Shown one piece after another: positions 2,946 to 41,100 of a stretch of DNA of 64,000 nt. The translations under genes and the position numbers were made by a program. Within the stretch, counting starts at the first letter, position 1. Every line of letters begins with the position of its first letter. Source of the DNA: Anthopleura xanthogrammica (Eukaryota; Cnidaria; Anthozoa; Actiniaria; Actiniidae); assembly GCA_964019055.1 (NCBI GenBank), contig OZ025208.1:11901597-11965596 (forward strand). The letters are read 5' to 3'. Under the pieces are notes generated by a model that saw nothing but the letters and a program-made list of their open reading frames with translations, had not been told where the DNA came from and ran no database searches.

Positions 2946-3536
2946 ACGATTGTAAAAAAATATTTATAAGTTACACAAAGACCAATGATGATGATGATAA
3001 TAATAATAATACGTTTTTAACATCTCTTACATTATTTATTAGTTTTTTATTATTTGTTTATTATTATTTTTTTTATCATTAATGTCATTATTTCTTAGTG
3101 GTGGATTTTTTCAGCAAATACCCATCAAAACTCGCTGAAACTTCATACAAGAGTCTAAACAGAATGACAGCCGATAAGTCTACAATCTTTAATTTGCAAA
3201 TTTCAAATAAAATACGGCATATTCTGAATCCCCATACATTCTCTTACAAATGTATTGAGCTTGGGTTGTCTGTGATATGAAAAGTTTCAAACACGGAGAT
3301 GAACTAAGAATATAAGAGATTGATGTGTTCTGTAGGAAATGACTTGTATTCAATCTTACCCAGAGTCCTTCAGCGCCTTCCTTCTTTGTCGTCAGTGCCT
3401 GGTGAGACGCCAGCACGCTGACCAAATAGCCGGAGAACTCTGGGCTCGAGATGGGCTGGTATTTCATAATATACCAATAATGCATTTCGATCGTAGTAAG
3501 GCCACCGCCTTCATTGAGTACATATTAAGCCATATA

Positions 3537-3574
3537 ATCAGGGAGGTGTGAAAAATCCCTCACATCTCCCTGAT
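3537..3574 (+). promoter_or_regulatory. 15-bp hairpin immediately upstream of the NLR copy 1 ATG
   Basis: The arms 3537-3551 and 3560-3574 are perfectly complementary in RNA, allowing one G-U pair, with an 8-nt loop. The stem ends 3 nt before the ATG at 3578 and can extend to it with one bulged base. It would lie in the 5' leader where a scanning ribosome meets the start codon. Confidence 0.7.
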
Positions 3575-3577
3575 ATA

Positions 3578-6500
3578 ATGGAGAATCTAAAGGAGTTTTT
3601 GCTTCCAAAACGATTCAGCAGTTACGGATACATTGTGGCCATTCTAACAGCATTCGCTGGGGTAATCTTTGGAGTCATAACAAGTATTAGAACGACCGAA
3701 AGACGACAATTTCACTGCAACAGCCATGGTATTCTTGCCGACAAGAACTTCCTGACAGCCAAGTGTTTTAATCAATACGAGCAACATTACAATGCGCCTC
3801 TACCACTGTATGGCTTTGTTCTTCTTACTTTTGCTACTTTAGTGCTTATCTGCATCATTTATTCCTGGTGTTGTGTGAAATCCCGAGTTGATCAAGTCGA
3901 AGAAGCATGTACGCCGAACCCGGAAATCCCTCGACCTACTCCAGTAATACGAACTCGCTATATCTTCTGGTCATATTTGATCCAGTTATTGGTGCGATTT
4001 GGTTTTGGGGCTTTCTTTGTATCATTACAATTAACAGGACTCTATCCTTCGAACTTTCCGACACAATTTCATTGCCAGTGGAATCCAAAACGAACAACGA
4101 ATACTGTAACGCATTCTAATTCATCGTTACCCATAAACTGTGAAAACTCGATTGCCAGAGAGAAAACTGTTTGGGCAATGGTCGTGTGGATTTTGCACAT
4201 AATCTTTGCATGTCTTGTGTTATTGGAAGCGTTTTATCTTCTCGCAAGAGCTTGTCATGCAAAGACTTTCATGAGAGATCCTGAATTCTGCCAAAGACAT
4301 CTTTTCAAAAGAAGTAGTGTTCCTTTAGTGCAGGAGGATTTTATTGAACTTTTACAAGATCGAATGATTGAGCAGACAGAGTATCTAGAACCGCTGATTC
4401 CCTTAGATCCAGAGGAAGGTGACACGAGGAAAGCAATAGATGATATTTACATTGATCTGATTATAAGTCCTGGCAGAGTCACGCATGATTTCCACAGGTC
4501 AAAGAACAGACACGAGCTCTTGGACGTCTATATGAAAGCACCAGAATCTTCTGTTAAAATTAACAATGTCGATGAGCTTTTTCTTTTTAACGGCGAGTCG
4601 TATCACATCATACTTGTCGTCGGTCGCCCAGGAATTGGAAAGACGTCGTTGTGCACGAAAATCATTCGGGACTGGTGTAAAGGCAAAGCACTTAAACAAT
4701 TCAAGTATGTGTTTACATTTAGATTTAGACATTTGAATACTGAAACAGTCACGAAAATGTCCCTCAGGCAATTTCTCAGTAAAGCGGAACACTCATCAGG
4801 GACAATAGACTCTAGTCTTTTGCAAAATATTGCTGAAAACCCGAAATCCGTTTTAATTATTTTTGATGGGTTTGACGAGTATAAACATCGTGAAAACTTG
4901 ATGAAGGACCAGTTAGAATTCAGTGGATCAAATGGATTGACCGATGAAATTCCAGTCACTGCTCTTTATGTCAAACTTTTGCAAAAGAAACTGCTCTCTG
5001 GAGCTACGATCTTGACAACTTCAAGACCAAATACTGTGGACACTCTGAAAATGTTCCGTTTTGAGAGAGTAGCTGAAATCCTGGGATTTACTTCAAAGAA
5101 AATCCAATTATATGTTGAGAAGTTTTGCAAAGATGATACAGACACAGGAAGCAGTATATGGCAGCACATAGAAAGAAATGTCAATCTACTATATCTGTGT
5201 TACATTCCAGTCACTTGTTGGATTGTCTGTTCGTTATTAGAAGATTGCATTAAAACGCAAAATGCTGGCTCCCAAAACTTTGCTCTACCAACCACTCTCA
5301 CTGATGTCTACAAAGGAGCATTAAGGCTCTTTTTGTTTAAACATAATCCAGAATATCAACATCAAACTTTAACAGATCATTATCAAAACGATGCATTTTT
5401 GGATTCAATTGAGAATGCACTCTCTAAACTTGGATTGCTAGCAAGAAAAGGAATCGATGAGAGACGATTGGTTTTTGAAAAGGAAGAGGTTCAAGGATTA
5501 GAAAACTGTGGCCTGCTCAACTGTATGCCAAGTAAAGAAAATTCTCGTTTTGGATTTGTTCAGCCACCACAGTATTGCTTTATTCATTATACACTTCAAG
5601 AATTTCTTGCTGCAAGATACATTGCAAAAATACCTGACCCTGATGAAGTAGCTCAGTTTATTGAATCTAAAGTCCATGATGCAAATTGGCATCTTGTAAT
5701 TCAGTTTATAACAGGACTATTGCAAGATCGGCAGTTTGCTGCTAAAGTTGCTGAGTACCTTATAAGCATATTTTGTGACTCTGTGATTGCAACAACTAGA
5801 AAAGAAACACTTTTACTAATGCTAAAGTGCTTTTATGAGTTGAACTATGAAAATGTCACAATCAGAGCTGCCACGAAATTTACCTCTAACGATAAATTTA
5901 ACAATCATGTAGATTTATCTAACATCGATGTAGCACCTGTTGATTGTACTGCCATTGTGTATGTTTTGAGATACTGTGGACCTCCATTACATTCACTTGA
6001 CATTTCTGGTAACCACTCTTTTGGTGCCCATGGTTGCTCAGAGCTTACCAAGATATTCAACAGAAGAGAATATAACCAAAGAAATGATCAAGGTGCATTA
6101 AACCTGTGTGATGAAACCTGTCATCTCACTCAGTTGAACTTGAACTATAACCAAATAACTGATGAAGGTGTATTACACCTGAGTGATGCACTCAAAAGTG
6201 AAAACTGTCATCTCACCCAGTTGCAATTGATACATAACCAAATAACTGATGAAGGTGTATTACACCTGAGTGAAGCACTCAAATGTGAAAACTGCCATTT
6301 CACCCAGTTGAACTTGAGCAATAACCAAATAACTGATGAAGGTGCATTACACCTGAGTGATGCACTCAAATGTGAAAACTGTCATCTCACACAGTTGGAC
6401 TTGAGAGGTAACGGAATAACTGATCAAGGTGTATTACACCTGAGTTATGCACTCAAATGTGAAAACTGTCATCTCACCCAGTTGGACTTGAGAGGTAGCG

Positions 6501-7294
6501 GAATAACTGATCAAGGTGTATTACACCTGAGTGATGCACTCAAATGTGAAAACTGTCATCTCACCCAGTTGAACTTGAGATATAACGAAATAACTGATGA
6601 AGGTTTATTACACCTGAGTGATGCACTCAAAAGTGAAAACTGTCATCTCACCCAGTTGGAATTTTACAGTAACGAAATAACTGATGAAGGTGTATTACAC
6701 CTGAGTGATGCACTCAAATGTGAAAACTGTCATCTCACCCAGTTGAACTTGAGATATAACGAAATAACTGATCAAGGTGTATTACACCTGAGTGATGCAC
6801 TCAAAAGTGAAAACTGTCATCTCACCCAGTTGAACATTGGAGGTAACGAAATAACTGTTCAAGGTGTATTACACCTGAGTGATGCACTCAAATGTGAAAA
6901 CTGTCATCTCACACAGTTGGACTTGAACAGTGACCAAATAACTGATCAAGGTGTATTACACCTGAGTGATGCACTCAAATGTGAAAACTGTCATCTCACC
7001 CAGTTGAACTTGAGCAATAACGAAATAACTGATCAAGGTGTATTACACCTGAGTGATGCACTCAAATGTGAAAACTGTCATCTCACCCAGTTGGACTTGA
7101 ACAGTGACCAAATAACTGATCAAGGTGTATTACACCTGAGTGATGCACTCAAATGTGAAAACTGTCATCTCACCCAGTTGGAATTGAACCGTAACCAAAT
7201 AACTGATCAAGGTGTATTACACCTGAGTGATGCACTCAAATGTGAAAACTGTCATCTCACCCAGTTAACTGTCAACTTTTCCAGTTTGATTTGA
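3578..7294 (+). CDS. NLR copy 1: four-TM (connexin/innexin-like) domain + NACHT + 13 LRRs, 1238 aa
   Basis: This is an intracellular NACHT-LRR receptor with a membrane-embedded N terminus. I start at the ATG at 3578; an in-frame TGA lies at 3515-3517. Hydrophobic segments lie at about residues 16-38, 77-99, 128-153 and 197-223. Loop 1 has Cys47 and Cys63; loop 2 has Cys166 and Cys188 plus an NSS sequon, giving a four-helix large-pore-channel topology with the C terminus in the cytosol. The NACHT ATPase has Walker A GRPGIGKTS at 349-357 and Walker B LIIFDGFDE near 426-434. FIHYTLQEFLAARYI near 668 is the typical NLR helical-domain motif. Thirteen 29-residue LRRs run from residue 848, then a short cap. 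The downstream NACHT/LRR part matches copy 2, but the N-terminal part has its own substitutions (for example TTERRQ against TTEIRQ) and a loop 2 five residues shorter. The TATA block upstream of the other copies is missing here, so expression may differ or be lost. Confidence 0.88.
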   Translation: MENLKEFLLPKRFSSYGYIVAILTAFAGVIFGVITSIRTTERRQFHCNSHGILADKNFLTAKCFNQYEQHYNAPLPLYGFVLLTFATLVLICIIYSWCCVKSRVDQVEEACTPNPEIPRPTPVIRTRYIFWSYLIQLLVRFGFGAFFVSLQLTGLYPSNFPTQFHCQWNPKRTTNTVTHSNSSLPINCENSIAREKTVWAMVVWILHIIFACLVLLEAFYLLARACHAKTFMRDPEFCQRHLFKRSSVPLVQEDFIELLQDRMIEQTEYLEPLIPLDPEEGDTRKAIDDIYIDLIISPGRVTHDFHRSKNRHELLDVYMKAPESSVKINNVDELFLFNGESYHIILVVGRPGIGKTSLCTKIIRDWCKGKALKQFKYVFTFRFRHLNTETVTKMSLRQFLSKAEHSSGTIDSSLLQNIAENPKSVLIIFDGFDEYKHRENLMKDQLEFSGSNGLTDEIPVTALYVKLLQKKLLSGATILTTSRPNTVDTLKMFRFERVAEILGFTSKKIQLYVEKFCKDDTDTGSSIWQHIERNVNLLYLCYIPVTCWIVCSLLEDCIKTQNAGSQNFALPTTLTDVYKGALRLFLFKHNPEYQHQTLTDHYQNDAFLDSIENALSKLGLLARKGIDERRLVFEKEEVQGLENCGLLNCMPSKENSRFGFVQPPQYCFIHYTLQEFLAARYIAKIPDPDEVAQFIESKVHDANWHLVIQFITGLLQDRQFAAKVAEYLISIFCDSVIATTRKETLLLMLKCFYELNYENVTIRAATKFTSNDKFNNHVDLSNIDVAPVDCTAIVYVLRYCGPPLHSLDISGNHSFGAHGCSELTKIFNRREYNQRNDQGALNLCDETCHLTQLNLNYNQITDEGVLHLSDALKSENCHLTQLQLIHNQITDEGVLHLSEALKCENCHFTQLNLSNNQITDEGALHLSDALKCENCHLTQLDLRGNGITDQGVLHLSYALKCENCHLTQLDLRGSGITDQGVLHLSDALKCENCHLTQLNLRYNEITDEGLLHLSDALKSENCHLTQLEFYSNEITDEGVLHLSDALKCENCHLTQLNLRYNEITDQGVLHLSDALKSENCHLTQLNIGGNEITVQGVLHLSDALKCENCHLTQLDLNSDQITDQGVLHLSDALKCENCHLTQLNLSNNEITDQGVLHLSDALKCENCHLTQLDLNSDQITDQGVLHLSDALKCENCHLTQLELNRNQITDQGVLHLSDALKCENCHLTQLTVNFSSLI
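6119..7249 (+). repeat. 87-bp LRR-coding tandem repeat, 13 units (copy 1)
   Basis: Each 87-bp unit encodes 29 residues of the ribonuclease-inhibitor LRR type, with a CHLTQL frame, a variable stretch, then ITDxGVLHLSDALKxEN. Framework codons are almost identical at the DNA level. Differences cluster in the six codons after LTQL, for example NLRYNE, DLRGNG, EFYSNE and DLNSDQ. The array starts at 6119 and the terminal half-repeat at 7250. Confidence 0.95.
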
Positions 7295-9983: not shown

Positions 9984-12900
9984 ATGGAGAATCTAAAGGA
10001 GTTTTTGCTTCCAAAACGATTCAGCGGCTACGGATACATTGTGGCCATTCTAACTGCATTCGCTGGGGTAATCTTTGGAGTCATAACGAGTATTAGAACG
10101 ACCGAAATACGACAATTTCACTGCAACAGCCATGGTATTCTTGCCGACAAGAACTTCTTGACAGCCAAGTGTTTTAATCAATACGAGCAACATTACAATG
10201 CGCCTCTACCACTGTATGGCTTTGTTCTTCTCACTTTTGCTACTTTAGTGCTTATCTGCATCATTTATTCCTGGTGTTGTGTGAAATCCCGAGTTGATCA
10301 AGTCGAAGAAGCATGCACGCCGAACCCGGAAAACCCTCGGCGTACTCCAGTAATACGAACTCGCTATATCTTCTGGTCATATTTGATTCAGTTATTGGTG
10401 CGATTTGGTTTTGGGGCTTTCTTTGCATCATTACAATTAACAGGACTCTATCCTTCGAACTTTCCGTCACAATTTCATTGCCAGTGGAATCCAAAACGAA
10501 CAGCAAATACTGCAAACTTTAATGTAACGCATTCTAATTCATCGTTACTAATTATAAACTGTGAAAACTCGATTGCCAGAGAGAAAACTGTTTGGGCAAT
10601 GGTCGTGTGGATTTTGCACATAATCTTTGCATGTCTTGTGTTATTGGAAGCGTTTTATCTTCTCGCAAGAGCTTGTCATGCAAAGACTTTCATGAGAGAT
10701 CCTGAATTCTGCCAAAGACATCTTTTCAAAAGAAGTAGTGTTCCTTTAGTGCAGGAGGATTTTATTGAACTTTTACAAGATCGAATGATTGAGCAGACAG
10801 AGTATCTAGAACCGCTGATTCCCTTAGATCCAGAGGAAGGTGACACGAGGAAAGCAATAGATGATATTTACATTGATCTGATTATAAGTCCTGGCAGAGT
10901 CACGCATGATTTCCACAGGTCAAAGAACAGACACGAGCTCTTGGACGTCTATATGAAAGCACCAGAATCTTCTGTTAAAATTAACAATGTCGATGAGCTT
11001 TTTCTTTTTAACGGCGAGTCGTATCACATCATACTTGTCGTCGGTCGCCCAGGAATTGGAAAGACGTCGTTGTGCACGAAAATCATTCGGGACTGGTGTA
11101 AAGGCAAAGCACTTAAACAATTCAAGTATGTGTTTACATTTAGATTTAGACATTTGAATACTGAAACAGTCACGAAAATGTCCCTCAGGCAATTTCTCAG
11201 TAAAGCGGAACACTCATCAGGGACAATAGACTCTAGTCTTTTGCAAAATATTGCTGAAAACCCGAAATCCGTTTTAATTATTTTTGATGGGTTTGACGAG
11301 TATAAACATCGTGAAAACTTGATGAAGGACCAGTTAGAATTCAGTGGATCAAATGGATTGACCGATGAAATTCCAGTCACTGCTCTTTATGTCAAACTTT
11401 TGCAAAAGAAACTGCTCTCTGGAGCTACGATCTTGACAACTTCAAGACCAAATACTGTGGACACTCTGAAAATGTTCCGTTTTGAGAGAGTAGCTGAAAT
11501 CCTGGGATTTACTTCAAAGAAAATCCAATTATATGTTGAGAAGTTTTGCAAAGATGATACAGACACAGGAAGCAGTATATGGCAGCACATAGAAAGAAAT
11601 GTCAATCTACTATATCTGTGTTACATTCCAGTCACTTGTTGGATTGTCTGTTCGTTATTAGAAGATTGCATTAAAACGCAAAATGCTGGCTCCCAAAACT
11701 TTGCTCTACCAACCACTCTCACTGATGTCTACAAAGGAGCATTAAGGCTCTTTTTGTTTAAACATAATCCAGAATATCAACATCAAACTTTAACAGATCA
11801 TTATCAAAACGATGCATTTTTAGATTCAATTGAGAATGCACTCTCTAAACTTGGATTGCTAGCAAGAAAAGGAATCGATGAGAGACGATTGGTTTTTGAA
11901 AAGGAAGAGGTTCAAGGATTAGAAAACTGTGGCCTGCTCAACTGTATGCCAAGTAAAGAAAATTCTCGTTTTGGATTTGTTCAGCCACCACAGTATTGCT
12001 TTATTCATTATACACTTCAAGAATTTCTTGCTGCAAGATACATTGCAAAAATACCTGACCCTGATGAAGTAGCTCAGTTTATTGAATCTAAAGTCCATGA
12101 TGCAAATTGGCATCTTGTAATTCAGTTTATAACAGGACTATTGCAAGATCGGCAGTTTGCTGCTAAAGTTGCTGAGTACCTTATAAGCATATTTTGTGAC
12201 TCTGTGATTGCAACAACTAGAAAAGAAACACTTTTACTAATGCTAAAGTGCTTTTATGAGTTGAACTATGAAAATGTCACAATCAGAGCTGCCACGAAAT
12301 TTACCTCTAACGATAAATTTAACAATCATGTAGATTTATCTAACATCGATGTAGCACCTGTTGATTGTACTGCCATTGTGTATGTTTTGAGATACTGTGG
12401 ACCTCCATTACATTCACTTGACATTTCTGGTAACCACTCTTTTGGTGCCCATGGTTGCTCAGAGCTTACCAAGATATTCAACAGAAGAGAATATAACCAA
12501 AGAAATGATCAAGGTGCATTAAACCTGTGTGATGAAACCTGTCATCTCACTCAGTTGAACTTGAACTATAACCAAATAACTGATGAAGGTGTATTACACC
12601 TGAGTGATGCACTCAAAAGTGAAAACTGTCATCTCACCCAGTTGCAATTGATACATAACCAAATAACTGATGAAGGTGTATTACACCTGAGTGAAGCACT
12701 CAAATGTGAAAACTGCCATTTCACCCAGTTGAACTTGAGCAATAACCAAATAACTGATGAAGGTGCATTACACCTGAGTGATGCACTCAAATGTGAAAAC
12801 TGTCATCTCACCCAGTTGAACTTGAGATATAACGAAATAACTGATGAAGGTTTATTACACCTGAGTGATGCACTCCAATGTGAAAACTGTCATCTCACCC

Positions 12901-13976
12901 AGTTGAACTTGAGCAATAACCAAATAACTGATGAAGGTGCATTACACCTGAGTGATGCACTCAAATGTGAAAACTGTCATCTCACCCAGTTGAACTTGAG
13001 ATATAACGAAATAACTGATGAAGGTTTATTACACCTGAGTGATGCACTCAAATGTGAAAACTGTCATCTCACCCAGTTGGAATTTTACAGTAACGAAATA
13101 ACTGATCAAGGTGTATTACACCTGAGTGATGCACTCAAATGTGAAAACTGTCATCTCACCCAGTTGAACTTGAGATATAACGAAATAACTGATGAAGGTG
13201 CATTACACCTGAGTGATGCACTCAAATGTGAAAACTGTCATCTCACCCAGTTGAACTTGAGATATAACGAAATAACTGATGAAGGTTTATTACACCTGAG
13301 TGATGCACTCAAAAGTGAAAACTGTCATCTCACCCAGTTGGAATTTTACAGTAACGAAATAACTGATGAAGGTGTATTACACCTTAGTGATGCACTCAAA
13401 TGTAAAAACTGTCATCTCACTCAGTTGGAATTGACCAGTGACCAAATAACTGATCAAGGTGTATTAGACCTGAGTGATGCACTCAAATGTGAAAACTGTC
13501 ATCTCACCCAGTTGGAATTGAGCAGTGGCCAAATAACTGATCAAGGTGTATTACACCTGAGTGATGCACTCAAATGTGAAAACTGTCATCTCACACAGTT
13601 GGACTTGAACAGTGACCAAATAACTGATCAAGGTGTATTACACCTGAGTGATGCACTCAAATGTGAAAACTGTCATCTCACCCAGTTGAACTTGAGCAAT
13701 AACGAAATAACTGATCAAGGTGTATTACACCTGAGTGATGCACTCAAATGTGAAAACTGTCATCTCACACAGTTGGACTTGAGAGGTAACGGAATAACTG
13801 ATCAAGGTGTATTACACCTGAGTTATGCACTCAAATGTGAAAACTGTCATCTCACCCAGTTGGACTTGAGAGGTAGCGGAATAACTGATCAAGGTGTATT
13901 ACACCTGAGTGATGCACTCAAATGTGAAAACTGTCATCTCACCCAGTTAACTGTCAACTTTTCCAGTTTGATTTGA
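9984..13976 (+). CDS. NLR copy 2: four-TM domain + NACHT + 16 LRRs, 1330 aa
   Basis: The architecture is that of copy 1 with three more LRRs and a second extracellular loop five residues longer. Cysteines are at 47, 63, 166 and 193. Loop 2 carries two N-glycosylation sequons (NVT and NSS), which supports its extracellular placement. Walker A is at about 354-362, Walker B near 431-439, and LRRs run from residue 853 to about 1316. The first ATG after an in-frame TGA (9921-9923) is at 9984. The gene has its own TATA promoter and a leader with short upstream ORFs. The NACHT and helical region is identical to copy 1, while the N-terminal region and spacer match copies 3 and 4, so the gene is a mosaic. 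The likely role is nucleotide-dependent oligomerisation on sensing a ligand through the LRRs. A channel function for the N terminus is inference. Confidence 0.9.
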   Translation: MENLKEFLLPKRFSGYGYIVAILTAFAGVIFGVITSIRTTEIRQFHCNSHGILADKNFLTAKCFNQYEQHYNAPLPLYGFVLLTFATLVLICIIYSWCCVKSRVDQVEEACTPNPENPRRTPVIRTRYIFWSYLIQLLVRFGFGAFFASLQLTGLYPSNFPSQFHCQWNPKRTANTANFNVTHSNSSLLIINCENSIAREKTVWAMVVWILHIIFACLVLLEAFYLLARACHAKTFMRDPEFCQRHLFKRSSVPLVQEDFIELLQDRMIEQTEYLEPLIPLDPEEGDTRKAIDDIYIDLIISPGRVTHDFHRSKNRHELLDVYMKAPESSVKINNVDELFLFNGESYHIILVVGRPGIGKTSLCTKIIRDWCKGKALKQFKYVFTFRFRHLNTETVTKMSLRQFLSKAEHSSGTIDSSLLQNIAENPKSVLIIFDGFDEYKHRENLMKDQLEFSGSNGLTDEIPVTALYVKLLQKKLLSGATILTTSRPNTVDTLKMFRFERVAEILGFTSKKIQLYVEKFCKDDTDTGSSIWQHIERNVNLLYLCYIPVTCWIVCSLLEDCIKTQNAGSQNFALPTTLTDVYKGALRLFLFKHNPEYQHQTLTDHYQNDAFLDSIENALSKLGLLARKGIDERRLVFEKEEVQGLENCGLLNCMPSKENSRFGFVQPPQYCFIHYTLQEFLAARYIAKIPDPDEVAQFIESKVHDANWHLVIQFITGLLQDRQFAAKVAEYLISIFCDSVIATTRKETLLLMLKCFYELNYENVTIRAATKFTSNDKFNNHVDLSNIDVAPVDCTAIVYVLRYCGPPLHSLDISGNHSFGAHGCSELTKIFNRREYNQRNDQGALNLCDETCHLTQLNLNYNQITDEGVLHLSDALKSENCHLTQLQLIHNQITDEGVLHLSEALKCENCHFTQLNLSNNQITDEGALHLSDALKCENCHLTQLNLRYNEITDEGLLHLSDALQCENCHLTQLNLSNNQITDEGALHLSDALKCENCHLTQLNLRYNEITDEGLLHLSDALKCENCHLTQLEFYSNEITDQGVLHLSDALKCENCHLTQLNLRYNEITDEGALHLSDALKCENCHLTQLNLRYNEITDEGLLHLSDALKSENCHLTQLEFYSNEITDEGVLHLSDALKCKNCHLTQLELTSDQITDQGVLDLSDALKCENCHLTQLELSSGQITDQGVLHLSDALKCENCHLTQLDLNSDQITDQGVLHLSDALKCENCHLTQLNLSNNEITDQGVLHLSDALKCENCHLTQLDLRGNGITDQGVLHLSYALKCENCHLTQLDLRGSGITDQGVLHLSDALKCENCHLTQLTVNFSSLI
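12540..13931 (+). repeat. 87-bp LRR-coding tandem repeat, 16 units (copy 2)
   Basis: There are sixteen 29-codon units. NLSNNQ and NLRYNE units alternate at positions 3-6. The RGN/RGS pair that sits at positions 4-5 in copy 1 is at positions 15-16 here. Confidence 0.95.
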
Positions 13977-16665: not shown

Positions 16666-19600
16666 ATGGAGAATCTAAAGGAGTTTTTGCTTCCAAAACG
16701 ATTCAGCGGCTACGGATACATTGTGGCCATTCTAACTGCATTCGCTGGGGTAATCTTTGGAGTCATAACGAGTATTAGAACGACCGAAATACGACAATTT
16801 CACTGCAACAGCCATGGTATTCTTGCCGACAAGAACTTCTTGACAGCCAAGTGTTTTAATCAATACGAGCAACATTACAATGCGCCTCTACCACTGTATG
16901 GCTTTGTTCTTCTCACTTTTGCTACTTTAGTGCTTATCTGCATCATTTATTCCTGGTGTTGTGTGAAATCCCGAGTTGATCAAGTCGAAGAAGCATGCAC
17001 GCCGAACCCGGAAAACCCTCGGCGTACTCCAGTAATACGAACTCGCTATATCTTCTGGTCATATTTGATTCAGTTATTGGTGCGATTTGGTTTTGGGGCT
17101 TTCTTTGCATCATTACAATTAACAGGACTCTATCCTTCGAACTTTCCGTCACAATTTCATTGCCAGTGGAATCCAAAACGAACAGCAAATACTGCAAACT
17201 TTAATGTAACGCATTCTAATTCATCGTTACTAATTATAAACTGTGAAAACTCGATTGCCAGAGAGAAAACTGTTTGGGCAATGGTCGTGTGGATTTTGCA
17301 CATAATCTTTGCATGTCTTGTGTTATTGGAAGCGTTTTATCTTCTCGCAAGAGCTTGTCATGCAAAGACTTTCATGAGAGATCCTGAATTCTGCCAAAGA
17401 CATCTTTTCAAAAGAAGTAGTGTTCCTTTAGTGCAGGAGGATTTTATTGAACTTTTACAAGATCGAATGATTGAGCAGACAGAGTATCTAGAACCGCTGA
17501 TTCCCTTAGATCCAGAGGAAGGTGACACGAGGAAAGCAATAGATGATATTTACATTGATCTGATTATAAGTTCTGGCAGAGTCACGCATGATTTCCACAG
17601 GTCAAAGAACAGACACGAGCTCTTGGACGTCTATATGAAAGCACCAGAATCTTCTGTTAAAATTAACAATGTCGATGAGCTTTTTCTTTTTAACGGCGAG
17701 TCGTATCACATCATACTTGTCGTCGGTCGCCCAGGAATTGGAAAGACGTCGTTGTGCACGAAAATCATTCGGGACTGGTGTAAAGGCAAAGCACTTAAAC
17801 AATTCAAGTATGTGTTTACATTTAGATTTAGACATTTGAATACTGAAACAGTCACGAAAATGTCCCTCAGGCAATTTCTCAGTAAAGCGGAACACTCATC
17901 AGGGACAATAGACTCTAGTCTTTTGCAAAATATTGCTGAAAACCCAGAATCCGTTTTAATTATTTTTGATGGGTTTGACGAGTATAAACATCGTAAAAAC
18001 TTGATGAAGGACCAGTTAGAATTCAGTGGATCAAATGGATTGACCGATGAAATTCCAGTCACTGCTCTTTATGTCAAACTTTTGCAAAAGAAACTGCTCT
18101 CTGGAGCTACGATCTTGACAACTTCAAGACCAAATACTGTGGACACTCTGAAAATGTTCCGTTTTGAGAGAGTAGCTGAAATCCTGGGATTTACTTCAAA
18201 GAAAATCCAATTATATGTTGAGAAGTTTTGCAAAGATGATACAGACACAGGAAGCAGTATATGGCAGCACATAGAAAGAAATGTCAATCTACTATATCTG
18301 TGTTACATTCCAGTCACTTGTTGGATTGTCTGTTCGTTATTAGAAGATTGCATTAAAACGCAAAATGCTGGCTCCCAAAACTTTGCTCTACCAACCACTC
18401 TCACTGATGTCTACAAAGGAGCATTAAGGCTCTTTTTGTTTAAACATAATCCAGAATATCAACATCAAACTTTAACAGATCATTATCAAAACGATGCATT
18501 TTTAGATTCAATTGAGAATGCACTCTCTAAACTTGGATTGCTAGCAAGAAAAGGAATCGATGAGAGACGATTGGTTTTTGAAAAGGAAGAGGTTCAAGGA
18601 TTAGAAAACTGTGGCCTGCTCAACTGTATGCCAAGTAAAGAAAATTCTCGTTTTGGATTTGTTCAGCCACCACAGTATTGCTTTATTCATTATACACTTC
18701 AAGAATTTCTTGCTGCAAGATACATTGCAAAAATACCTGACCCTGATGAAGTAGCTCAGTTTATTGAATCTAAAGTCCATGATGCAAATTGGCATCTTGT
18801 AATTCAGTTTATAACAGGACTATTGCAAGATCGGCAGTTTGCTGCTAAAGTTGCTGAGTACCTTATAAGCATATTTTGTGACTCTGTGATTGCAACAACT
18901 AGAAAAGAAACACTTTTACTAATGCTAAAGTGCTTTTATGAGTTGAACTATGAAAATGTCACAATCAGAGCTGCCACGAAATTTACCTCTAACGATAAAT
19001 TTAACAATCATGTAGATTTATCTAACATCGATGTAGCACCTGTTGATTGTACTGCCATTGTGTATGTTTTGAGATACTGTGGACCTCCATTACATTCACT
19101 TGACATTTCTGGTAACCACTCTTTTGGTGCCCATGGTTGCTCAGAGCTTACCAAGATATTCAACAGAAGAGAATATAACCAAAGAAATGATCAAGGTGCA
19201 TTAAACCTGTGTGATGAAACCTGTCATCTCACTCAGTTGAACTTGAACTATAACCAAATAACTGATGAAGGTGTATTACACCTGAGTGATGCACTCAAAA
19301 GTGAAAACTGTCATCTCACCCAGTTGCAATTGATACATAACCAAATAACTGATGAAGGTGTATTACACCTGAGTGAAGCACTCAAATGTGAAAACTGCCA
19401 TTTCACCCAGTTGAACTTGAGCAATAACCAAATAACTGATGAAGGTGCATTACACCTGAGTGATGCACTCAAATGTGAAAACTGTCATCTCACCCAGTTG
19501 AACTTGAGATATAACGAAATAACTGATGAAGGTTTATTACACCTGAGTGATGCACTCCAATGTGAAAACTGTCATCTCACCCAGTTGAACTTGAGCAATA

Positions 19601-20658
19601 ACCAAATAACTGATGAAGGTGCATTACACCTGAGTGATGCACTCAAATGTGAAAACTGTCATCTCACCCAGTTGAACTTGAGATATAACGAAATAACTGA
19701 TGAAGGTTTATTACACCTGAGTGATGCACTCAAATGTGAAAACTGTCATCTCACCCAGTTGGAATTTTACAGTAACGAAATAACTGATCAAGGTGTATTA
19801 CACCTGAGTGATGCACTCAAATGTGAAAACTGTCATCTCACCCAGTTGAACTTGAGATATAACGAAATAACTGATGAAGGTGCATTACACCTGAGTGATG
19901 CACTCAAATGTGAAAACTGTCATCTCACCCAGTTGAACTTGAGATATAACGAAATAACTGATGAAGGTTTATTACACCTGAGTGATGCACTCAAAAGTGA
20001 AAACTGTCATCTCACCCAGTTGGAATTTTACAGTAACGAAATAACTGATGAAGGTGTATTACACCTTAGTGATGCACTCAAATGTAAAAACTGTCATCTC
20101 ACTCAGTTGGAATTGACCAGTGACCAAATAACTGATCAAGGTGTATTAGACCTGAGTGATGCACTCAAATGTGAAAACTGTCATCTCACCCAGTTGGAAT
20201 TGAGCAGTGGCCAAATAACTGATCAAGGTGTATTACACCTGAGTGATGCACTCAAATGTGAAAACTGTCATCTCACACAGTTGGACTTGAACAGTGACCA
20301 AATAACTGATCAAGGTGTATTACACCTGAGTGATGCACTCAAATGTGAAAACTGTCATCTCACCCAGTTGAACTTGAGCAATAACGAAATAACTGATCAA
20401 GGTGTATTACACCTGAGTGATGCACTCAAATGTGAAAACTGTCATCTCACACAGTTGGACTTGAGAGGTAACGGAATAACTGATCAAGGTGTATTACACC
20501 TGAGTTATGCACTCAAATGTGAAAACTGTCATCTCACCCAGTTGGACTTGAGAGGTAGCGGAATAACTGATCAAGGTGTATTACACCTGAGTGATGCACT
20601 CAAATGTGAAAACTGTCATCTCACCCAGTTAACTGTCAACTTTTCCAGTTTGATTTGA
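16666..20658 (+). CDS. NLR copy 3: four-TM domain + NACHT + 16 LRRs, 1330 aa
   Basis: It is identical to copy 2 except for three amino acids, all between the fourth membrane helix and just after Walker B: IISS for IISP, NPES for NPKS and HRKN for HREN. These come from four nucleotide changes within about 430 bp. All three residues are shared with copy 4, so the tract probably moved between copies 3 and 4 by gene conversion, or copy 2 received the copy 1 version. LRR number and order equal copy 2. The reading frame, Walker motifs and all four loop cysteines are intact, so it should be functional. Confidence 0.9.
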   Translation: MENLKEFLLPKRFSGYGYIVAILTAFAGVIFGVITSIRTTEIRQFHCNSHGILADKNFLTAKCFNQYEQHYNAPLPLYGFVLLTFATLVLICIIYSWCCVKSRVDQVEEACTPNPENPRRTPVIRTRYIFWSYLIQLLVRFGFGAFFASLQLTGLYPSNFPSQFHCQWNPKRTANTANFNVTHSNSSLLIINCENSIAREKTVWAMVVWILHIIFACLVLLEAFYLLARACHAKTFMRDPEFCQRHLFKRSSVPLVQEDFIELLQDRMIEQTEYLEPLIPLDPEEGDTRKAIDDIYIDLIISSGRVTHDFHRSKNRHELLDVYMKAPESSVKINNVDELFLFNGESYHIILVVGRPGIGKTSLCTKIIRDWCKGKALKQFKYVFTFRFRHLNTETVTKMSLRQFLSKAEHSSGTIDSSLLQNIAENPESVLIIFDGFDEYKHRKNLMKDQLEFSGSNGLTDEIPVTALYVKLLQKKLLSGATILTTSRPNTVDTLKMFRFERVAEILGFTSKKIQLYVEKFCKDDTDTGSSIWQHIERNVNLLYLCYIPVTCWIVCSLLEDCIKTQNAGSQNFALPTTLTDVYKGALRLFLFKHNPEYQHQTLTDHYQNDAFLDSIENALSKLGLLARKGIDERRLVFEKEEVQGLENCGLLNCMPSKENSRFGFVQPPQYCFIHYTLQEFLAARYIAKIPDPDEVAQFIESKVHDANWHLVIQFITGLLQDRQFAAKVAEYLISIFCDSVIATTRKETLLLMLKCFYELNYENVTIRAATKFTSNDKFNNHVDLSNIDVAPVDCTAIVYVLRYCGPPLHSLDISGNHSFGAHGCSELTKIFNRREYNQRNDQGALNLCDETCHLTQLNLNYNQITDEGVLHLSDALKSENCHLTQLQLIHNQITDEGVLHLSEALKCENCHFTQLNLSNNQITDEGALHLSDALKCENCHLTQLNLRYNEITDEGLLHLSDALQCENCHLTQLNLSNNQITDEGALHLSDALKCENCHLTQLNLRYNEITDEGLLHLSDALKCENCHLTQLEFYSNEITDQGVLHLSDALKCENCHLTQLNLRYNEITDEGALHLSDALKCENCHLTQLNLRYNEITDEGLLHLSDALKSENCHLTQLEFYSNEITDEGVLHLSDALKCKNCHLTQLELTSDQITDQGVLDLSDALKCENCHLTQLELSSGQITDQGVLHLSDALKCENCHLTQLDLNSDQITDQGVLHLSDALKCENCHLTQLNLSNNEITDQGVLHLSDALKCENCHLTQLDLRGNGITDQGVLHLSYALKCENCHLTQLDLRGSGITDQGVLHLSDALKCENCHLTQLTVNFSSLI
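19222..20613 (+). repeat. 87-bp LRR-coding tandem repeat, 16 units (copy 3)
   Basis: Sixteen units in the same order as copy 2, offset by exactly 6682 bp. Confidence 0.95.
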
Positions 20659-23347: not shown

Positions 23348-26300
23348 ATGGAGAATCTAAAGGAGTTTTTGCTTCCAAAACGATTCAGCGGCTACGGATA
23401 CATTGTGGCCATTCTAACTGCATTCGCTGGGGTAATCTTTGGAGTCATAACGAGTATTAGAACGACCGAAATACGACAATTTCACTGCAACAGCCATGGT
23501 ATTCTTGCCGACAAGAACTTCTTGACAGCCAAGTGTTTTAATCAATACGAGCAACATTACAATGCGCCTCTACCACTGTATGGCTTTGTTCTTCTCACTT
23601 TTGCTACTTTAGTGCTTATCTGCATCATTTATTCCTGGTGTTGTGTGAAATCCCGAGTTGATCAAGTCGAAGAAGCATGCACGCCGAACCCGGAAAACCC
23701 TCGGCGTACTCCAGTAATACGAACTCGCTATATCTTCTGGTCATATTTGATTCAGTTATTGGTGCGATTTGGTTTTGGGGCTTTCTTTGCATCATTACAA
23801 TTAACAGGACTCTATCCTTCGAACTTTCCGTCACAATTTCATTGCCAGTGGAATCCAAAACGAACAGCAAATACTGCAAACTTTAATGTAACGCATTCTA
23901 ATTCATCGTTACTAATTATAAACTGTGAAAACTCGATTGCCAGAGAGAAAACTGTTTGGGCAATGGTCGTGTGGATTTTGCACATAATCTTTGCATGTCT
24001 TGTGTTATTGGAAGCGTTTTATCTTCTCGCAAGAGCTTGTCATGCAAAGACTTTCATGAGAGATCCTGAATTCTGCCAAAGACATCTTTTCAAAAGAAGT
24101 AGTGTTCCTTTAGTGCAGGAGGATTTTATTGAACTTTTACAAGATCGAATGATTGAGCAGACAGAGTATCTAGAACCGCTGATTCCCTTAGATCCAGAGG
24201 AAGGTGACACGAGGAAAGCAATAGATGATATTTACATTGATCTGATTATAAGTTCTGGCAGAGTCACGCATGATTTCCACAGGTCAAAGAACAGACACGA
24301 GCTCTTGGACGTCTATATGAAAGCACCAGAATCTTCTGTTAAAATTAACAATGTCGATGAGCTTTTTCTTTTTAACGGCGAGTCGTATCACATCATACTT
24401 GTCGTCGGTCGCCCAGGAATTGGAAAGACGTCGTTGTGCACGAAAATCATTCGGGACTGGTGTAAAGGCAAAGCACTTAAACAATTCAAGTATGTGTTTA
24501 CATTTAGATTTAGACATTTGAATACTGAAACAGTCACGAAAATGTCCCTCAGGCAATTTCTCAGTAAAGCGGAACACTCATCAGGGACAATAGACTCTAG
24601 TCTTTTGCAAAATATTGCTGAAAACCCAGAATCCGTTTTAATTATTTTTGATGGGTTTGACGAGTATAAACATCGTAAAAACTTGATGAAGGACCAGTTA
24701 GAATTCAGTGGATCAAATGGATTGACCGATGAAATTCCAGTCACTGCTCTTTATGTCAAACTTTTGCAAAAGAAACTGCTCTCTGGAGCTACGATCTTGA
24801 CAACTTCAAGACCAAATACTGTGGACACTCTGAAAATGTTCCGTTTTGAGAGAGTAGCTGAAATCCTGGGATTTACTTCAAAGAAAATCCAATTATATGT
24901 TGAGAAGTTTTGCAAAGATGGTACAGACACAGGAAGCAGTATATGGCAGCACATAGAAAGAAATGTCAATCTACTATATCTGTGTTACATTCCAGTCACT
25001 TGTTGGATTGTCTGTTCGTTATTAGAAGATTGCATTAAAACGCAAAATGCTGGCTCCCAAAACTTTGCTCTACCAACCACTCTCACTGATGTCTACAAAG
25101 GAGCATTAAGGCTCTTTTTGTTTAAACATAATCCAGAATATCAACATCAAACTTTAACAGATCATTATCAAAAGGATGCATTTTTAGATTCAATTGAGAA
25201 TGCACTCTCTAAACTTGGATTGCTAGCAAGAAAAGGAATCGATGAGAGACGATTGGTTTTTGAAAAGGAAGAGGTTCAAGGATTAGAAAACTGTGGCCTG
25301 CTCAACTGTATGCCAAGTAAAGAAAATTCTCGTTTTGGATTTGTCCAGCCACCACAGTATTGCTTTATTCATTATACACTTCAAGAGTTTCTTGCTGCCA
25401 GATACATTGTAAAAATACCTGACCCTAATAAAGTAGCTCAATTAATTGAATTTAAAGTCCATGATGCAAATTGGCATCTTGTAATTCAGTTTATAACAGG
25501 ACTATTGCAAGATCGGCAGTTTGCTGCTCAAGTTGCTGAGTGCCTTATAAGCATATTTTGTGACTCTGTGATTGCAATAACTAGAAAAGAAACACTTTTA
25601 CTAATGCTAAAGTGCTTTTATGAGTTGAACAATGAAGATGTCACAATCAGAGCTGTCGCGTCACTTACCTCAAATGATAAATTTAACAATCATGTAAATT
25701 TATCTTACATCGATGTAGCACCTGTTGATTGTACTGCCATTGTGTATGTTTTGAGATACTATGGAACTCGGTTAAATTCACTTGACATTTCTGGTAACCA
25801 CTCTTTTGGTGACCATGGTTGCTCAGAGCTTACCAAGATATTCAACAGAAGAGAATATAACCAAATAACTGATCAAGGTGCATTAAACCTGTGTGATGAA
25901 ACCTGTCATCTCACTCAGTTGAACTTGAACTATAACCAAATAACTGATGAAGGTGTATTACACCTGAGTGATGCACTCAAAAGTGAAAACTGTCATCTCA
26001 CCCAGTTGAGTTTGGGCAAAAACAAAATAACTGATCAAGGTGTATTACATCTGAGTGATGCACTCAAAAGTGAAAACTGTCATCTCACCCAGTTGAGTTT
26101 GGGCAAAAACCAAATAACTGATCAAGGTGTATTACATCTGAGTGATGCACTCAAAAGTGAAAACTGTCATCTCACCCAGTTGGAATTGAACGGTAAAGGA
26201 ATAACTGATGAAGGTTTATTACACCTGAGTGATGCACTCAAATGTGAAACCTGTCATCTCACCCAGTTGAGTTTGGGCAAAAACAAAATAACTGATCAAG

Positions 26301-26992
26301 GTGTATTACACCTGAGCGATGCACTCAAATGTGAAAACTGTCATCTTACCCAGTTGGGCTTGGGATATAACGAAATAACTGATCAAGGTGTATTACACCT
26401 GAGTGATGCACTCAAATGTGAAAACTGTCATCTTACCCAGTTGGAATTGACCAGTGACCAAATAACTGATCAAGGTGTATTACACCTTAGTGATGCACTC
26501 AAATGTAAAAACTGTCATCTCACTCAGTTGGAATTGACCAGTGACCAAATAACTGATCAAGGTGTATTAGACCTGAGTGATGCACTCAAATGTGAAAACT
26601 GTCATCTCACCCAGTTGGAATTGAGCAGTGGCCAAATAACTGATCAAGGTGTATTACACCTGAGTGATGCACTCAAATGTGAAAACTGTCATCTCATCTG
26701 GTTGGACTTGAGAGGTAACGGAATAACTGATCAAGGTGTATTACACCTGAGTTATGCACTCAAATGTGAAAACTGTCATCTCACCCAGTTGGACTTGAGA
26801 GGTAGCGGAATAACTGATCAAGGTGTATTACACCTGAGTGATGCACTCAAATGTGAAAACTGTCATCTCATCCAGTTGGACTTGTTATGTTTTAATATAT
26901 CTGATCAAGGTGAATTACACCTGACTGATGCACTCAAATGTGAAAACTGTCAACTCACCCAGTTAACTGTCAACTTATCCAGTTTGATTTGA
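23348..26992 (+). CDS. NLR copy 4: four-TM domain + NACHT + 12 LRRs, 1214 aa (divergent 3' half)
   Basis: The first two thirds are almost identical to copy 3: same membrane domain with cysteines 47, 63, 166 and 193, same Walker A and B. From about residue 520 substitutions accumulate (DGTDTG, YQKDAF, RYIVKIPDPNKVAQLIE, AVASLTS, RYYGTRLNS). The LRR set differs most, with SLGKNK/Q units found in no other copy, IWL and IQL in place of TQL, and a unique last unit (DLLCFN). It therefore carries the most distinct predicted ligand surface in the array. The sharp change from near-identity to divergence marks a conversion boundary. The last array unit is often the least homogenised, and this copy fits that. 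The frame is intact. Confidence 0.9.
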   Translation: MENLKEFLLPKRFSGYGYIVAILTAFAGVIFGVITSIRTTEIRQFHCNSHGILADKNFLTAKCFNQYEQHYNAPLPLYGFVLLTFATLVLICIIYSWCCVKSRVDQVEEACTPNPENPRRTPVIRTRYIFWSYLIQLLVRFGFGAFFASLQLTGLYPSNFPSQFHCQWNPKRTANTANFNVTHSNSSLLIINCENSIAREKTVWAMVVWILHIIFACLVLLEAFYLLARACHAKTFMRDPEFCQRHLFKRSSVPLVQEDFIELLQDRMIEQTEYLEPLIPLDPEEGDTRKAIDDIYIDLIISSGRVTHDFHRSKNRHELLDVYMKAPESSVKINNVDELFLFNGESYHIILVVGRPGIGKTSLCTKIIRDWCKGKALKQFKYVFTFRFRHLNTETVTKMSLRQFLSKAEHSSGTIDSSLLQNIAENPESVLIIFDGFDEYKHRKNLMKDQLEFSGSNGLTDEIPVTALYVKLLQKKLLSGATILTTSRPNTVDTLKMFRFERVAEILGFTSKKIQLYVEKFCKDGTDTGSSIWQHIERNVNLLYLCYIPVTCWIVCSLLEDCIKTQNAGSQNFALPTTLTDVYKGALRLFLFKHNPEYQHQTLTDHYQKDAFLDSIENALSKLGLLARKGIDERRLVFEKEEVQGLENCGLLNCMPSKENSRFGFVQPPQYCFIHYTLQEFLAARYIVKIPDPNKVAQLIEFKVHDANWHLVIQFITGLLQDRQFAAQVAECLISIFCDSVIAITRKETLLLMLKCFYELNNEDVTIRAVASLTSNDKFNNHVNLSYIDVAPVDCTAIVYVLRYYGTRLNSLDISGNHSFGDHGCSELTKIFNRREYNQITDQGALNLCDETCHLTQLNLNYNQITDEGVLHLSDALKSENCHLTQLSLGKNKITDQGVLHLSDALKSENCHLTQLSLGKNQITDQGVLHLSDALKSENCHLTQLELNGKGITDEGLLHLSDALKCETCHLTQLSLGKNKITDQGVLHLSDALKCENCHLTQLGLGYNEITDQGVLHLSDALKCENCHLTQLELTSDQITDQGVLHLSDALKCKNCHLTQLELTSDQITDQGVLDLSDALKCENCHLTQLELSSGQITDQGVLHLSDALKCENCHLIWLDLRGNGITDQGVLHLSYALKCENCHLTQLDLRGSGITDQGVLHLSDALKCENCHLIQLDLLCFNISDQGELHLTDALKCENCQLTQLTVNLSSLI
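25904..26947 (+). repeat. 87-bp LRR-coding tandem repeat, 12 units (copy 4)
   Basis: Twelve units. Positions 2, 3 and 5 are the SLGKN type, 7-8 are both ELTSDQ, 10-11 are the RGN/RGS pair, and 12 is a unique DLLCFN unit ending in ISDQGELHL. Confidence 0.95.
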
Positions 26993-37640: not shown

Positions 37641-38116
37641 TGGAAAGGGAGGAAAAAGAAAAGAAAATGGTAAAGAAAACTGTGAAAACTCCAGTTGTAC
37701 CATCGTTTTTCTTTACATTTGGAACTTATTAAGTATATAATGATTTAAAGAAAGAGCAAAGTTACTTTGATAGAAAAAAACAAAACAATCAAAGTCAAGG
37801 TAGCGAAAACTTTTCCTATAATTACTTTGTTTCTAGTAACATCTAAGCCAAAGAACCAAGACGGCTTGTAAACAATGTTAGCATCATGGTCAATGTGGGA
37901 TAAAATTAGATCAAAATAAAGCTAAAAATCATTCGACATTTAAAACAAACTATCCAGACATGGGTTCCTTAGTTTTTGGTGGCAAAACCGCAAATCCAAA
38001 ACTTTCAAAAAACTTGATCAATTTTTTTTCCTATCGAAGTCAATTAGTTATAATTGTGTTATTTTTTCATTACTATGAAGGTATTCGTGCACATGAAGAG
38101 ATAGAAGACGCTGGAT

Positions 38117-41100
38117 ATGACTTCAAGAATGGATGACAATAAAAAGCGTGACAAGCTAAGATATTCGTCACTGGAGATAGAAAACATGGAGCTTAAGGCT
38201 GCGGTTGACAGCCATGAATCTATAATCCAACAACTCAGAGAAGAGTTACGAGCTATCAACCATGTTCAAGTGAATCCTGGAGAAGGAGAACGCTTCCGTC
38301 TGGAGCAAGAGATCTTGGATTTACGAGGGGATTTGCAAGGAAAGGGGATTTCTATCAAGCAGTTGAAACAAGAATTGGTTAATTCACAACAGACCATTGA
38401 ACAGTTACACCACAATTACGCATGCGCACGTGGGTCAATCGAGGCAAAGGACGCGACTATTCGTAAACTGCAAAAAGAAATTAGTAACCTGCAGGAATCG
38501 CTTGAGGTCTCGCAAAGGGAGAAGCTTAGCGTCCTCGATCGGCTCAAGTCGGTGGAAGCCGATTTATCCGCCATGAGTATCGACAAGGCATGGCTTGATC
38601 AGCAACTGGAGGTGTCACAGACTGCAATGGCAGAGTTCCGTGTAACCGGCAGCCCGCGTTCTGATACCCCCAGGTCAAAACAAGAACTGGAAGTGAGGAT
38701 GGAAGGGGTGAAGAAAGAGAGGGAGAGTCTTCAGGAGTTGATACAGACAGCGGCGAATTATGAAGAAATGATAAGAAACATGGATACTAACGGGGGATAC
38801 AAGAACACTAGAAGTGGTCATCACTCGCATAGGTCTTATGGGAGAAGCGCAACTGAAGCTCACAAAGTGGACGAATCTACGATACAAGACTTGGGTAACA
38901 AAATGACTGCAGTGGAGGAAAGGCTACGCAAAGCCGTCTTATCGCAGAAATACCAACTTCAAACAGAAAGGGAACAGCTTATCCAAGAATTTAAGACAAT
39001 GCAAAGACAGTTATTAGAATATCAGAAACACCAAGAATTGCACAAATCTGACATGGAGGCAAAGGATACATTGATTCAAAGGTTGAAGACCGCAAAAGCG
39101 TCTCTTGACAACGAAGTAGAATCACTAAAGCGTGACTTGGTCTCTTGCCAAAACCAAAACCAGCGATATCAACAGGAAAAAAGTACATTTGAACATGAGT
39201 TGAAGTCTTCCAGAAATCAAATTGATAGGATGGAGTCTGATTTGGTGAACGAGAAGCGACAGAGAGAGCTGATGCGGGCTAGGATAGAACAGTTTAGTTC
39301 GTCCAGCGCGATGGAAAAAGAGGAGCTTTCGAAGCTGAAGATGAGCTTACGTGATCAGTCGTTCCAGGCGGAGACTTACGCCAAAGAGAATAAAGCCAAG
39401 GATAGTTTAATCGTGCAGCTTCGGGAAAGACTTGTGTGGAGTGAAGAAGAACTCGAGAAAATGAAAGGCCAACTCATAAACACAAGAAATTTGGGATCGG
39501 ACTTCGATAGAGAAAGAGAGAACCTTAGTCGAAGTTTGTCCAGTGCTGAGAGACGGATAAGTGAGCTAGAATCAGCTTACCAACAATGCTGTCAGACCAA
39601 GGACGCACTTGAAAGAGAAGTAAAGAATTATCAGCAAACTTTTTCAAAGTTAAAGTCAAGTGGTGATTCTAATCAGCAAAGAAACATGGAGTTGGAAAAC
39701 GAGATCTTAGTGCTGCGAAACAAGTATTCCAAACTGGAGACTGTTTATGAAAGCTGTCAGAAGGAAAAGATTCAACTGCAGCAAGAACTCGTGCCTGCGA
39801 CAATGAAAAATTCCCATCTGAAGAGTGCTTTTGATAGCAGCCAACATCATCAGCTGCACATGCAAGAGGAGATCCTTTTATCGCACAAGAAAGTCAGTGA
39901 AGCAGAAGCAAAGTTAGAAAGAATCAAACAAGAAAAAAGTGAGATCCAACGCGAGCTGAATAGCGTCAGGAACACGCTGAGCAAGACAGAGCAACAACTA
40001 CAGCGCGTCACCAAAGAAAAGGCAGAAGCTTCTGCAAGACTAGAAGATGCTAATAACAGGCTTTGGAGATCATCGGGAGACAGCAAGAAAATGGAGACCT
40101 ACTGGCAGGAGTATCAACAAAAATGTGATGCTCTTAATTCTGAAGTCGATCGTAAGGAACACACGGTTATTGAGCTAAGAAGCGAAAAGGTCAACCTAGA
40201 ACAAGAGGTTCAGAAACTAAAACACGACTTTGAAATCATAAACAGTGATTTAAGAGCGTGCCAAAGAGAGAAAGAAAAGATTGCTTATGAGCTGACGAGT
40301 AAGAAACAGAGAACAGCGGAAGCGGAAGACAGCGTCACGCGCTTGCGCAGTGAGAGAGAGAAACTTCAACATGAGTTGATCGTGATGAAAGAGAATAATA
40401 CTCAATGGAAAGACATGTGCGAGAAAATCCAACAAGATAAAGAAAGGCTGCAGCAAGAGATGATCGAACTGCAGCGAACCATCTCTAAGTATGAAGCAAA
40501 CAAAAGTAATGCTAAATACGATCGAAACGAGGCTAGTGACAGTGAAGTTATTTCTCTGAAAGCACGTGTGGATCACCTTGAAAGTCAATTGAGCAGCGCA
40601 AAAAGAACAGAAGAAGATCTAAATAATCGGTTAAGAGAAAGGCAAGGATACAAACAAGAACATAGGCTGGTTGAAAGGGAATTGGATGAAAAGAATAGAC
40701 AGATCTCATACTTGACCAAAGACATCAATGTCAAAGTAAACTTGATCGAACAGCTGAAAAAAGAGAGCATTGGTCTTAAAACAGAACTTGATGAAGTGAA
40801 CAGGACAACACTGGCTGCAAGTCCCAGGGAAGACCGCAAAGATCGCGAGTTGACCATCTTGAAAGCTGACCTGACAGAACTTCGTCAAAAGGCGCATGAC
40901 TATGACAACGACCGCGAATCATTGAGACAGAAGAATATGCAGTTACAGAAAGAGTTGCTTTCGCTCCAAAGCAGGAATAAAGAGTTGGAAAAGAGCTACG
41001 ACAAGCTGAAGGACCGAGAGCATAAAATACAGCGAGAGGCAACAACCAATAAAGATTACATCTCTAAGTTAGAATACGAGCTGAGAGAACACAATGACAA

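Follow-up and report, generated by a model that had tools for sequence, protein, structure and literature searches.

Connexin-like membrane domains at the N terminus of NACHT-LRR receptors in the sea anemone Anthopleura xanthogrammica

In this report, we focus on a stretch of 64,000 nucleotides of the genome of the sea anemone Anthopleura xanthogrammica (assembly GCA_964019055.1, contig OZ025208.1, positions 11,901,597 to 11,965,596 of the forward strand), which we term the window, and particularly on the membrane domain with which four of its genes begin. These genes lie in tandem on the plus strand, and each is one open frame in which a connexin-like membrane domain is followed by a NACHT domain and by leucine-rich repeats (LRRs). 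We find that this membrane domain is almost certainly a homologue, albeit a divergent one, of the connexins, which form the gap junctions of vertebrates. Copy 1 is a single open frame at 3578-7291 with its ATG at 3578, and in every copy the membrane domain (237 or 242 residues) leads through a linker to the NACHT domain and then to LRRs of the ribonuclease-inhibitor type. In the coordinates of the window, the genes and their parts are:

3578..4288, plus strand: copy 1, connexin-like four-helix membrane domain, residues 1-237 (hydropathy; PF00029; AlphaFold2 model and fold searches)
4607..5134, plus strand: copy 1, NACHT domain, residues 344-519 (PF05729, E 6.7e-31; NLRP proteins among the best solved relatives)
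6118..7291, plus strand: copy 1, LRRs of the ribonuclease-inhibitor type (PF13516, E 1.7e-61; start placed by eye)
9984..13973, plus strand: copy 2, complete connexin-like/NACHT/LRR gene, membrane domain 9984-10709 (Pfam, protein search)
16666..20655, plus strand: copy 3, complete gene, membrane domain 16666-17391 (NACHT search; LRRs by eye)
23348..26989, plus strand: copy 4, complete gene, membrane domain 23348-24073 (NACHT search; LRRs by eye)

On its sequence, the NACHT-LRR part is that of an ordinary animal NACHT-LRR receptor (NLR), with a NACHT NTPase and C-terminal LRRs both recognised in copy 1 (PF05729 and PF13516) and with NLRP14, NLRP5 and NLRP3 chains among its best solved relatives. 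The Pfam analysis covered copies 1 and 2, and the NACHT domains of copies 3 and 4 were recognised by the genome-wide NACHT search and their LRRs by eye. No death-fold effector (CARD, PYD, DD or DED) stands among the best 25 of 26 Pfam families for copy 1 or the best 25 of 28 for copy 2, and in both copies the place of the N-terminal effector is occupied by the membrane domain. Pfam cytochrome c families and SPMIP10 also matched the LRR part and were rejected, the cytochrome c matches being spurious because the repeated CENCH-type LRR motif resembles CxxCH.

The membrane domain of copy 1 holds hydrophobic segments at residues 19-37, 77-95, 134-152 and 198-216 behind an N terminus of 18 residues, and in all 10 members of the family tested (nine NLRs and one standalone gene, to which we return below) hydropathy finds four such segments within residues 1-260. 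This bears out the four N-terminal helices that a first-pass annotation of the window had read there. Its short cytosolic N terminus stands as to length, with 15 residues claimed and 17-19 found by hydropathy, in line with the roughly 20 of connexins; the side of the membrane does not follow, since neither the charge pattern nor the net charges of the loops decide whether the N terminus is cytosolic. The motifs quoted in that annotation, NCENSIAREKTVW, EAFYLLAR and IRT, are all present, and the loop-2 block YPSNFPSQFHC is found in copies 2-4, copy 1 reading YPSNFPTQFHC instead. Each outer loop carries two cysteines, as had been claimed, and the profile alignments place them on the first and third cysteines of the corresponding connexin loop, so that the middle one of the three connexin cysteines is absent. 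The features of copy 1 are the following:

about 3632-3688, 3806-3862, 3977-4033 and 4169-4225, plus strand: the four hydrophobic segments (hydropathy)
3716..3718, plus strand: C47, first cysteine of loop 1, aligned to the first loop-1 cysteine of connexins (profile alignments)
3764..3766, plus strand: C63, second cysteine of loop 1, aligned to the third loop-1 cysteine of connexins (profile alignments)
4073..4075, plus strand: C166, first cysteine of loop 2, aligned to the first loop-2 cysteine of connexins (profile alignments)
4139..4141, plus strand: C188, second cysteine of loop 2, aligned to the third loop-2 cysteine of connexins (profile alignments)

Between the two cysteines of loop 2, all ten of the NLR domains examined have at least one N-x-S/T sequon, as C166-C188 of copy 1 does, so the predicted glycosylation sites are indeed there. 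This interval is 21 residues long in copy 1, against 10 in Cx32.

Taken alone, the domain of copy 1 matches the Pfam family Connexin (PF00029) with an E of 5.1e-6 and 26.8 bits. The resemblance to connexins first noticed by eye is thus beyond chance, as the shuffle control described below also indicates, and the comparison with the Connexin profile that had been proposed as a check gives a match, though one under the Pfam gathering cut-off of 31.3 bits; in copies 1 and 2 it spans only the half from the third to the fourth transmembrane helix (TM3-TM4). Among 15 aligned members, 14 match PF00029 at E up to 1 (best E 5.1e-12), and the NLR on contig C7 passes the cut-off with 33.9 bits when its pieces are summed. 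The next Pfam family after Connexin, 7tm_1, matches 4 of the 15 (best E 6e-4). Low PF00029 matches with internal stops elsewhere in the genome were taken as chance.

When a profile of the 15 members was compared with all PDB sequences, 30 of the 36 matches at E up to 10 were connexins and the other 6 were rhodopsin and somatostatin-receptor chains; the best match, Cx32 (E 4e-8), aligns with profile positions 17-231 of 238. When the profile is restricted to ten NLR domains, without the standalone gene, the broken copy L006 and outside proteins, connexins make up 28 of 29 matches (best E 9.6e-7). A direct hhalign comparison of the domain profile with two connexins gives a probability of 98 and an E of 1.6e-13, the latter holding for that single comparison, and a phmmer search of the PDB with the single window domain gave no match. 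The AlphaFold2 model of the copy 1 domain (pLDDT, the predicted local distance difference test, 81) shows the fold of a connexin protomer, and among the Foldseek matches listed for it 50 of 50 are connexins. The PDB profile matches at E up to 10 include no chain of an innexin, pannexin, LRRC8 or CALHM. Innexins, pannexins and CALHM are likewise missing among the matches listed in two fold searches (50 each), which does not imply their exclusion, and LRRC8 appears in the fold comparison only, in keeping with a large-pore four-helix fold.

If the domain were an unrelated four-helix membrane domain sharing only its topology with connexins, innexins and LRRC8, convergence would account for the likeness. 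We hold this to be very improbable, given that almost every sequence match is to a connexin and colinear with the domain over most of its length, that the standalone relative lies above the PF00029 cut-off, and that shuffled sequences fall short of the real score. For this control, two connexin sequences were shuffled either whole or block by block (8 or 15 residues per block, so that the hydrophobic pattern is approximately preserved), in twelve settings of 5,000 shuffles each (3,805-4,993 scored per setting). The real score was reached once in all twelve settings (1 of 4,980 in one of them), by a shuffle of Cx32 set against a wider profile of 37 sequences for which the real score was only 18.3 bits. 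Convergence was rejected on this control. As PF00029, the profile-to-PDB comparisons, hhalign and the predicted fold agree, the evidence now favours homology over convergence, a question that the first-pass annotation had called unproven, and by the measure of its residues the domain is specifically connexin-like. The innexin family PF00876 has no match in this genome, which is uninformative on absence since control genomes also gave none; were innexins truly absent here, the connexin-like family would be all the more interesting as a source of channels.

In the source assembly (290 Mb, 125 contigs), a protein search found the domain 16 times, namely in 12 intact NLR frames, 3 short or broken stretches and the standalone gene. 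The intact frames, of 1,133-1,350 residues, are spread over contigs C3 (4), C4 (3), C6 (2), C7, C14 and C18 (1 each). All 12 stand on the genome-wide NACHT list, and LRR-like repeats are readable in their translations. With at least 85 NACHT matches in the genome at an E of 0.001 or less (135 candidates, 95 of them scored), only a minority of its NACHT genes are connexin-like NLRs. The start codon and the residues that follow are conserved across these NLRs, and because a splice-acceptor-like sequence can be read directly before the ATG at L011, L012 and L013, a 5' untranslated exon is likely. Short or interrupted relatives lie beside intact genes at C18:3022222-3026470 and C4:15907612-15907905, and these are probably the decayed remains of further NLRs of this family.

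The standalone gene is single, lies on C3 at a distance of some 2 Mb from the window, and has no NACHT match near it on the genome-wide list:

C3:13985238-13985864 (L015 1812-2438, L031 812-1438): standalone connexin-like gene, the frame of which ends just after the fourth helix

It scores 43.7 bits against PF00029 with two pieces summed (26.0 and 19.2 apart), above the cut-off, as do its database relatives P0008 (97% identical to it, 40.1 bits) and P0010 (61%, 33.1 bits). P0010 also ends just after the fourth helix, at a stop or at the end of its contig, and P0008 continues for 55 residues. A profile of these three proteins finds connexins in 30 of 33 PDB matches at E up to 10 (best 6e-5), the N-terminal stretch being included in the alignment, and the standalone protein used as a genome query matches the NLR domains at E down to 1.9e-8. 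Because it matches both, the standalone protein, the NLR domain and the connexins are joined pairwise. The database relatives that bear species names come from Exaiptasia diaphana, Desmophyllum pertusum and Oculina patagonica, all of them hexacorals; other matches are nameless, and the Exaiptasia relatives, of up to 67% identity, are labelled NLRP-like or uncharacterised. Since a protein must have short exact words in common with the query to be reached by these searches, the family may also be present beyond hexacorals.

The connexin fold assembles as rings, and so do NACHT proteins. We favour, with a probability of about 0.6, the reading that these proteins are membrane-anchored NLRs in which a connexin-like hemichannel ring is gated by the NACHT-LRR part. 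In such a scheme, the four-helix domain would assemble into a hemichannel-like ring in the membrane. Its N terminus and the NACHT-LRR part would face the cytosol, and the glycosylated loops would lie outside, where they would hinder docking to a neighbouring cell. The LRRs would sense a ligand or danger cue, a nucleotide-driven change of the NACHT domain would open the ring or complete its assembly, and ions or small molecules (such as ATP) would cross the membrane as an alarm or death signal. The simplest working model would thus be a ring, pre-assembled or inducible, with its pore under the control of the cytosolic NACHT-LRR part. Of the components of this scheme, the domain probably does form a membrane pore, and NACHT-driven gating falls a little short of even odds. 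Connexin rings mostly have six subunits and those of active animal NLRs about ten or more, so the stoichiometry of the ring is a problem for the model.

Several observations weigh against a channel function. Trp3, invariant in most connexin clusters according to the available passages of PMC6858305, is not present in the members from this genome, which start with MENLK, MESLK, METIK, MDLVK and similar; a fragment from another source, P0001, does have Trp at position 3. In simple Nei-Gojobori counts over five close pairs, the ratio of nonsynonymous to synonymous change (dN/dS) in the membrane domain is 1.09, 0.87 and 0.91 in three of them, which indicates fast evolution, and 0.23 and 0.39 in the other two. 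A fair rival is therefore a plain membrane anchor: a connexin homologue without pore function that would serve an ordinary signalling NLR as anchor or oligomerisation platform, for which the lack of Trp3 and of the middle cysteines, the fast-evolving pairs and the confinement of the PF00029 match of copies 1 and 2 to TM3-TM4 all speak. We regard it as unlikely, because in at least one alignment of distant members the four cysteines, F45, Y67, Y133, R140, F160-P161 and E217 are invariant or nearly so, because the standalone relative is conserved at 61% identity in a protein from another source, so that its fold would be under selection, and because no other N-terminal effector is seen among the Pfam families listed for copies 1 and 2.

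Should the domain form a channel, it could instead build true intercellular gap junctions, with the NLR controlling the coupling between cells. This would fit the connexin homology and fold, and two further points count for it and against a hemichannel: Cx23, with the same four-cysteine pattern, is cited for both hemichannels and gap junctions in passages of the review PMC4729916, and the part of PMC8769644 at hand marks innexins that have loop sequons of this kind and form gap junctions. The same part of PMC8769644 reports, however, that glycosylation is held to block gap junctions in the chordate homologues of innexins. With sequons in loop 2 of 10 of 10 NLR domains, this makes a single-membrane hemichannel the more likely product, and by this analogy the sequons lean towards it. 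The interval between the loop-2 cysteines is also longer than in Cx32, and mouse Cx23 forms no functional gap junctions and raises ATP release, as worded in a paper title cited in PMC6858305. We therefore consider gap junctions quite improbable and retain the hemichannel gated by the NACHT-LRR part.

The array in the window also bears marks of its own history. Copies 2-4 start at a regular spacing of 6,682 bases, and blastn between copies finds stretches of 3.7-14 kb that are 95-98% identical. The membrane domains of copies 2-4 are 97% identical to that of copy 1, and residues 1-230 are identical among copies 2, 3 and 4. Copies 1 and 2 are separated by 20 changes in residues 1-230, of which 11 are synonymous and 9 are not, yet no nucleotide difference was counted over residues 231-560, which suggests, from the distribution of these differences, gene conversion between the two copies. 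The LRR arrays (6118-7291, for instance) are built of 87-base units, about 87-93% alike within and between copies, the number of which varies. A hairpin lies at the ATG of copy 1 (3530-3581), with a stem of 15 bp (3537-3551/3560-3574) whose outer 4 bp pair with the start codon and a z-score of -6.4 against shuffles; the same fold precedes copies 2-4, the gene at L016 is preceded by a different hairpin, and the structure could affect translation or be a remnant of a mobile element. Three coiled-coil-like open reading frames share the window: one upstream of the NLR array (263-1657, 464 codons), and two intronless ones, at 38105-51883 (4,592 codons in one frame) and at 56672-64000 (at least 2,443 codons, running beyond the window).

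Acropora NLRs are reportedly the subject of earlier work by Hamada et al. (2013), and we know of no animal NLR known to carry its own channel domain. The first-pass annotation had gone further and held that no NLR of this kind had been described, which does not fully stand: van der Burg et al. (2016) reported, in the available passages of PMC5094078, NLRs with 3-5 N-terminal transmembrane segments from anemones and Acropora that belong to one anthozoan clade, and proposed that these receptors are bound to the membrane. These are probably the present family, to which we liken them by description and not by sequence comparison. The link to connexins was not made there, as neither the main text of PMC5094078 nor that of PMC8260672, a survey of cnidarian receptors from 2021, contains the words "connexin" and "gap junction". 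Nor was a link between connexins and anthozoan NLRs found in the open-licence full texts of PMC, a corpus that does not cover preprints and most subscription papers. In the part of PMC8769644 at hand, Welzel and Schuster (2022) find no accepted connexin-like protein in non-chordate databases, apart from one unconfirmed sea-urchin transcript, and state that connexins arose de novo in chordates. Slivko-Koltchik et al., searching by HMMER with PF00029 and by BLAST, found connexins only in tunicates and vertebrates, with Hydra as the one cnidarian in their table (passages of PMC6391747).

Two beliefs are touched by our results, the first being that of connexins as a chordate invention. A clear homologue in hexacorals would move the origin of connexins back, or require a transfer, and would offer an outgroup with which connexin evolution can be rooted. 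We would tentatively propose, as an idea less likely than its opposite, that connexins did not arise de novo in chordates but come from a family present in the ancestor shared with Cnidaria, one branch of which became an NLR effector. A receptor whose NACHT domain, once activated, opens a connexin-type pore in its own chain would then be the animal equivalent of the channel-forming resistosome of plants. The second belief concerns animal NLRs and the absence of a channel domain of their own: whether they can kill or signal directly through a pore, as plant NLRs do, could now be tested in a sea anemone amenable to laboratory culture.

Among known systems, the resistosomes of plant coiled-coil (CC) NLRs resemble the proposed anthozoan receptors in that oligomerisation creates or opens a membrane channel. 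They differ in their N-terminal domain, which is unrelated and soluble until activated, whereas the anthozoan membrane domain would be integral to the membrane. LRRC8 volume-regulated anion channels are influenced by their LRRs; unlike the present proteins they have no NACHT domain, and no LRRC8 chain is found among the sequence-profile matches of the anthozoan domain. Innexins and pannexins share the topology, the two cysteines per loop and the loop glycosylation (partly general knowledge, partly passages of PMC8769644) but give no sequence match among the profile matches. The anthozoan transmembrane NLRs of PMC5094078 are alike in bearing N-terminal membrane segments on NLRs of anemones and Acropora, and differ in that their membrane part is left without identity in the available passages of that source. 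From the connexins (PF00029) the anthozoan domain departs in lying outside chordates, in the window copies falling under the Pfam cut-off, in the Trp3 missing from the members of this genome, in the long sequon-bearing loop 2 and in the fusion to NACHT-LRR. It is nonetheless to the connexins, and especially to Cx23 (GJE1), that it comes closest, in its four helices, short N terminus and colinear sequence, in its predicted fold, and in keeping the two outer cysteines of each loop. Cx23 itself, according to the portion of the review PMC4729916 at hand, has four extracellular cysteines and lacks the second of each loop, exactly the pair that is missing in the anthozoan domain.
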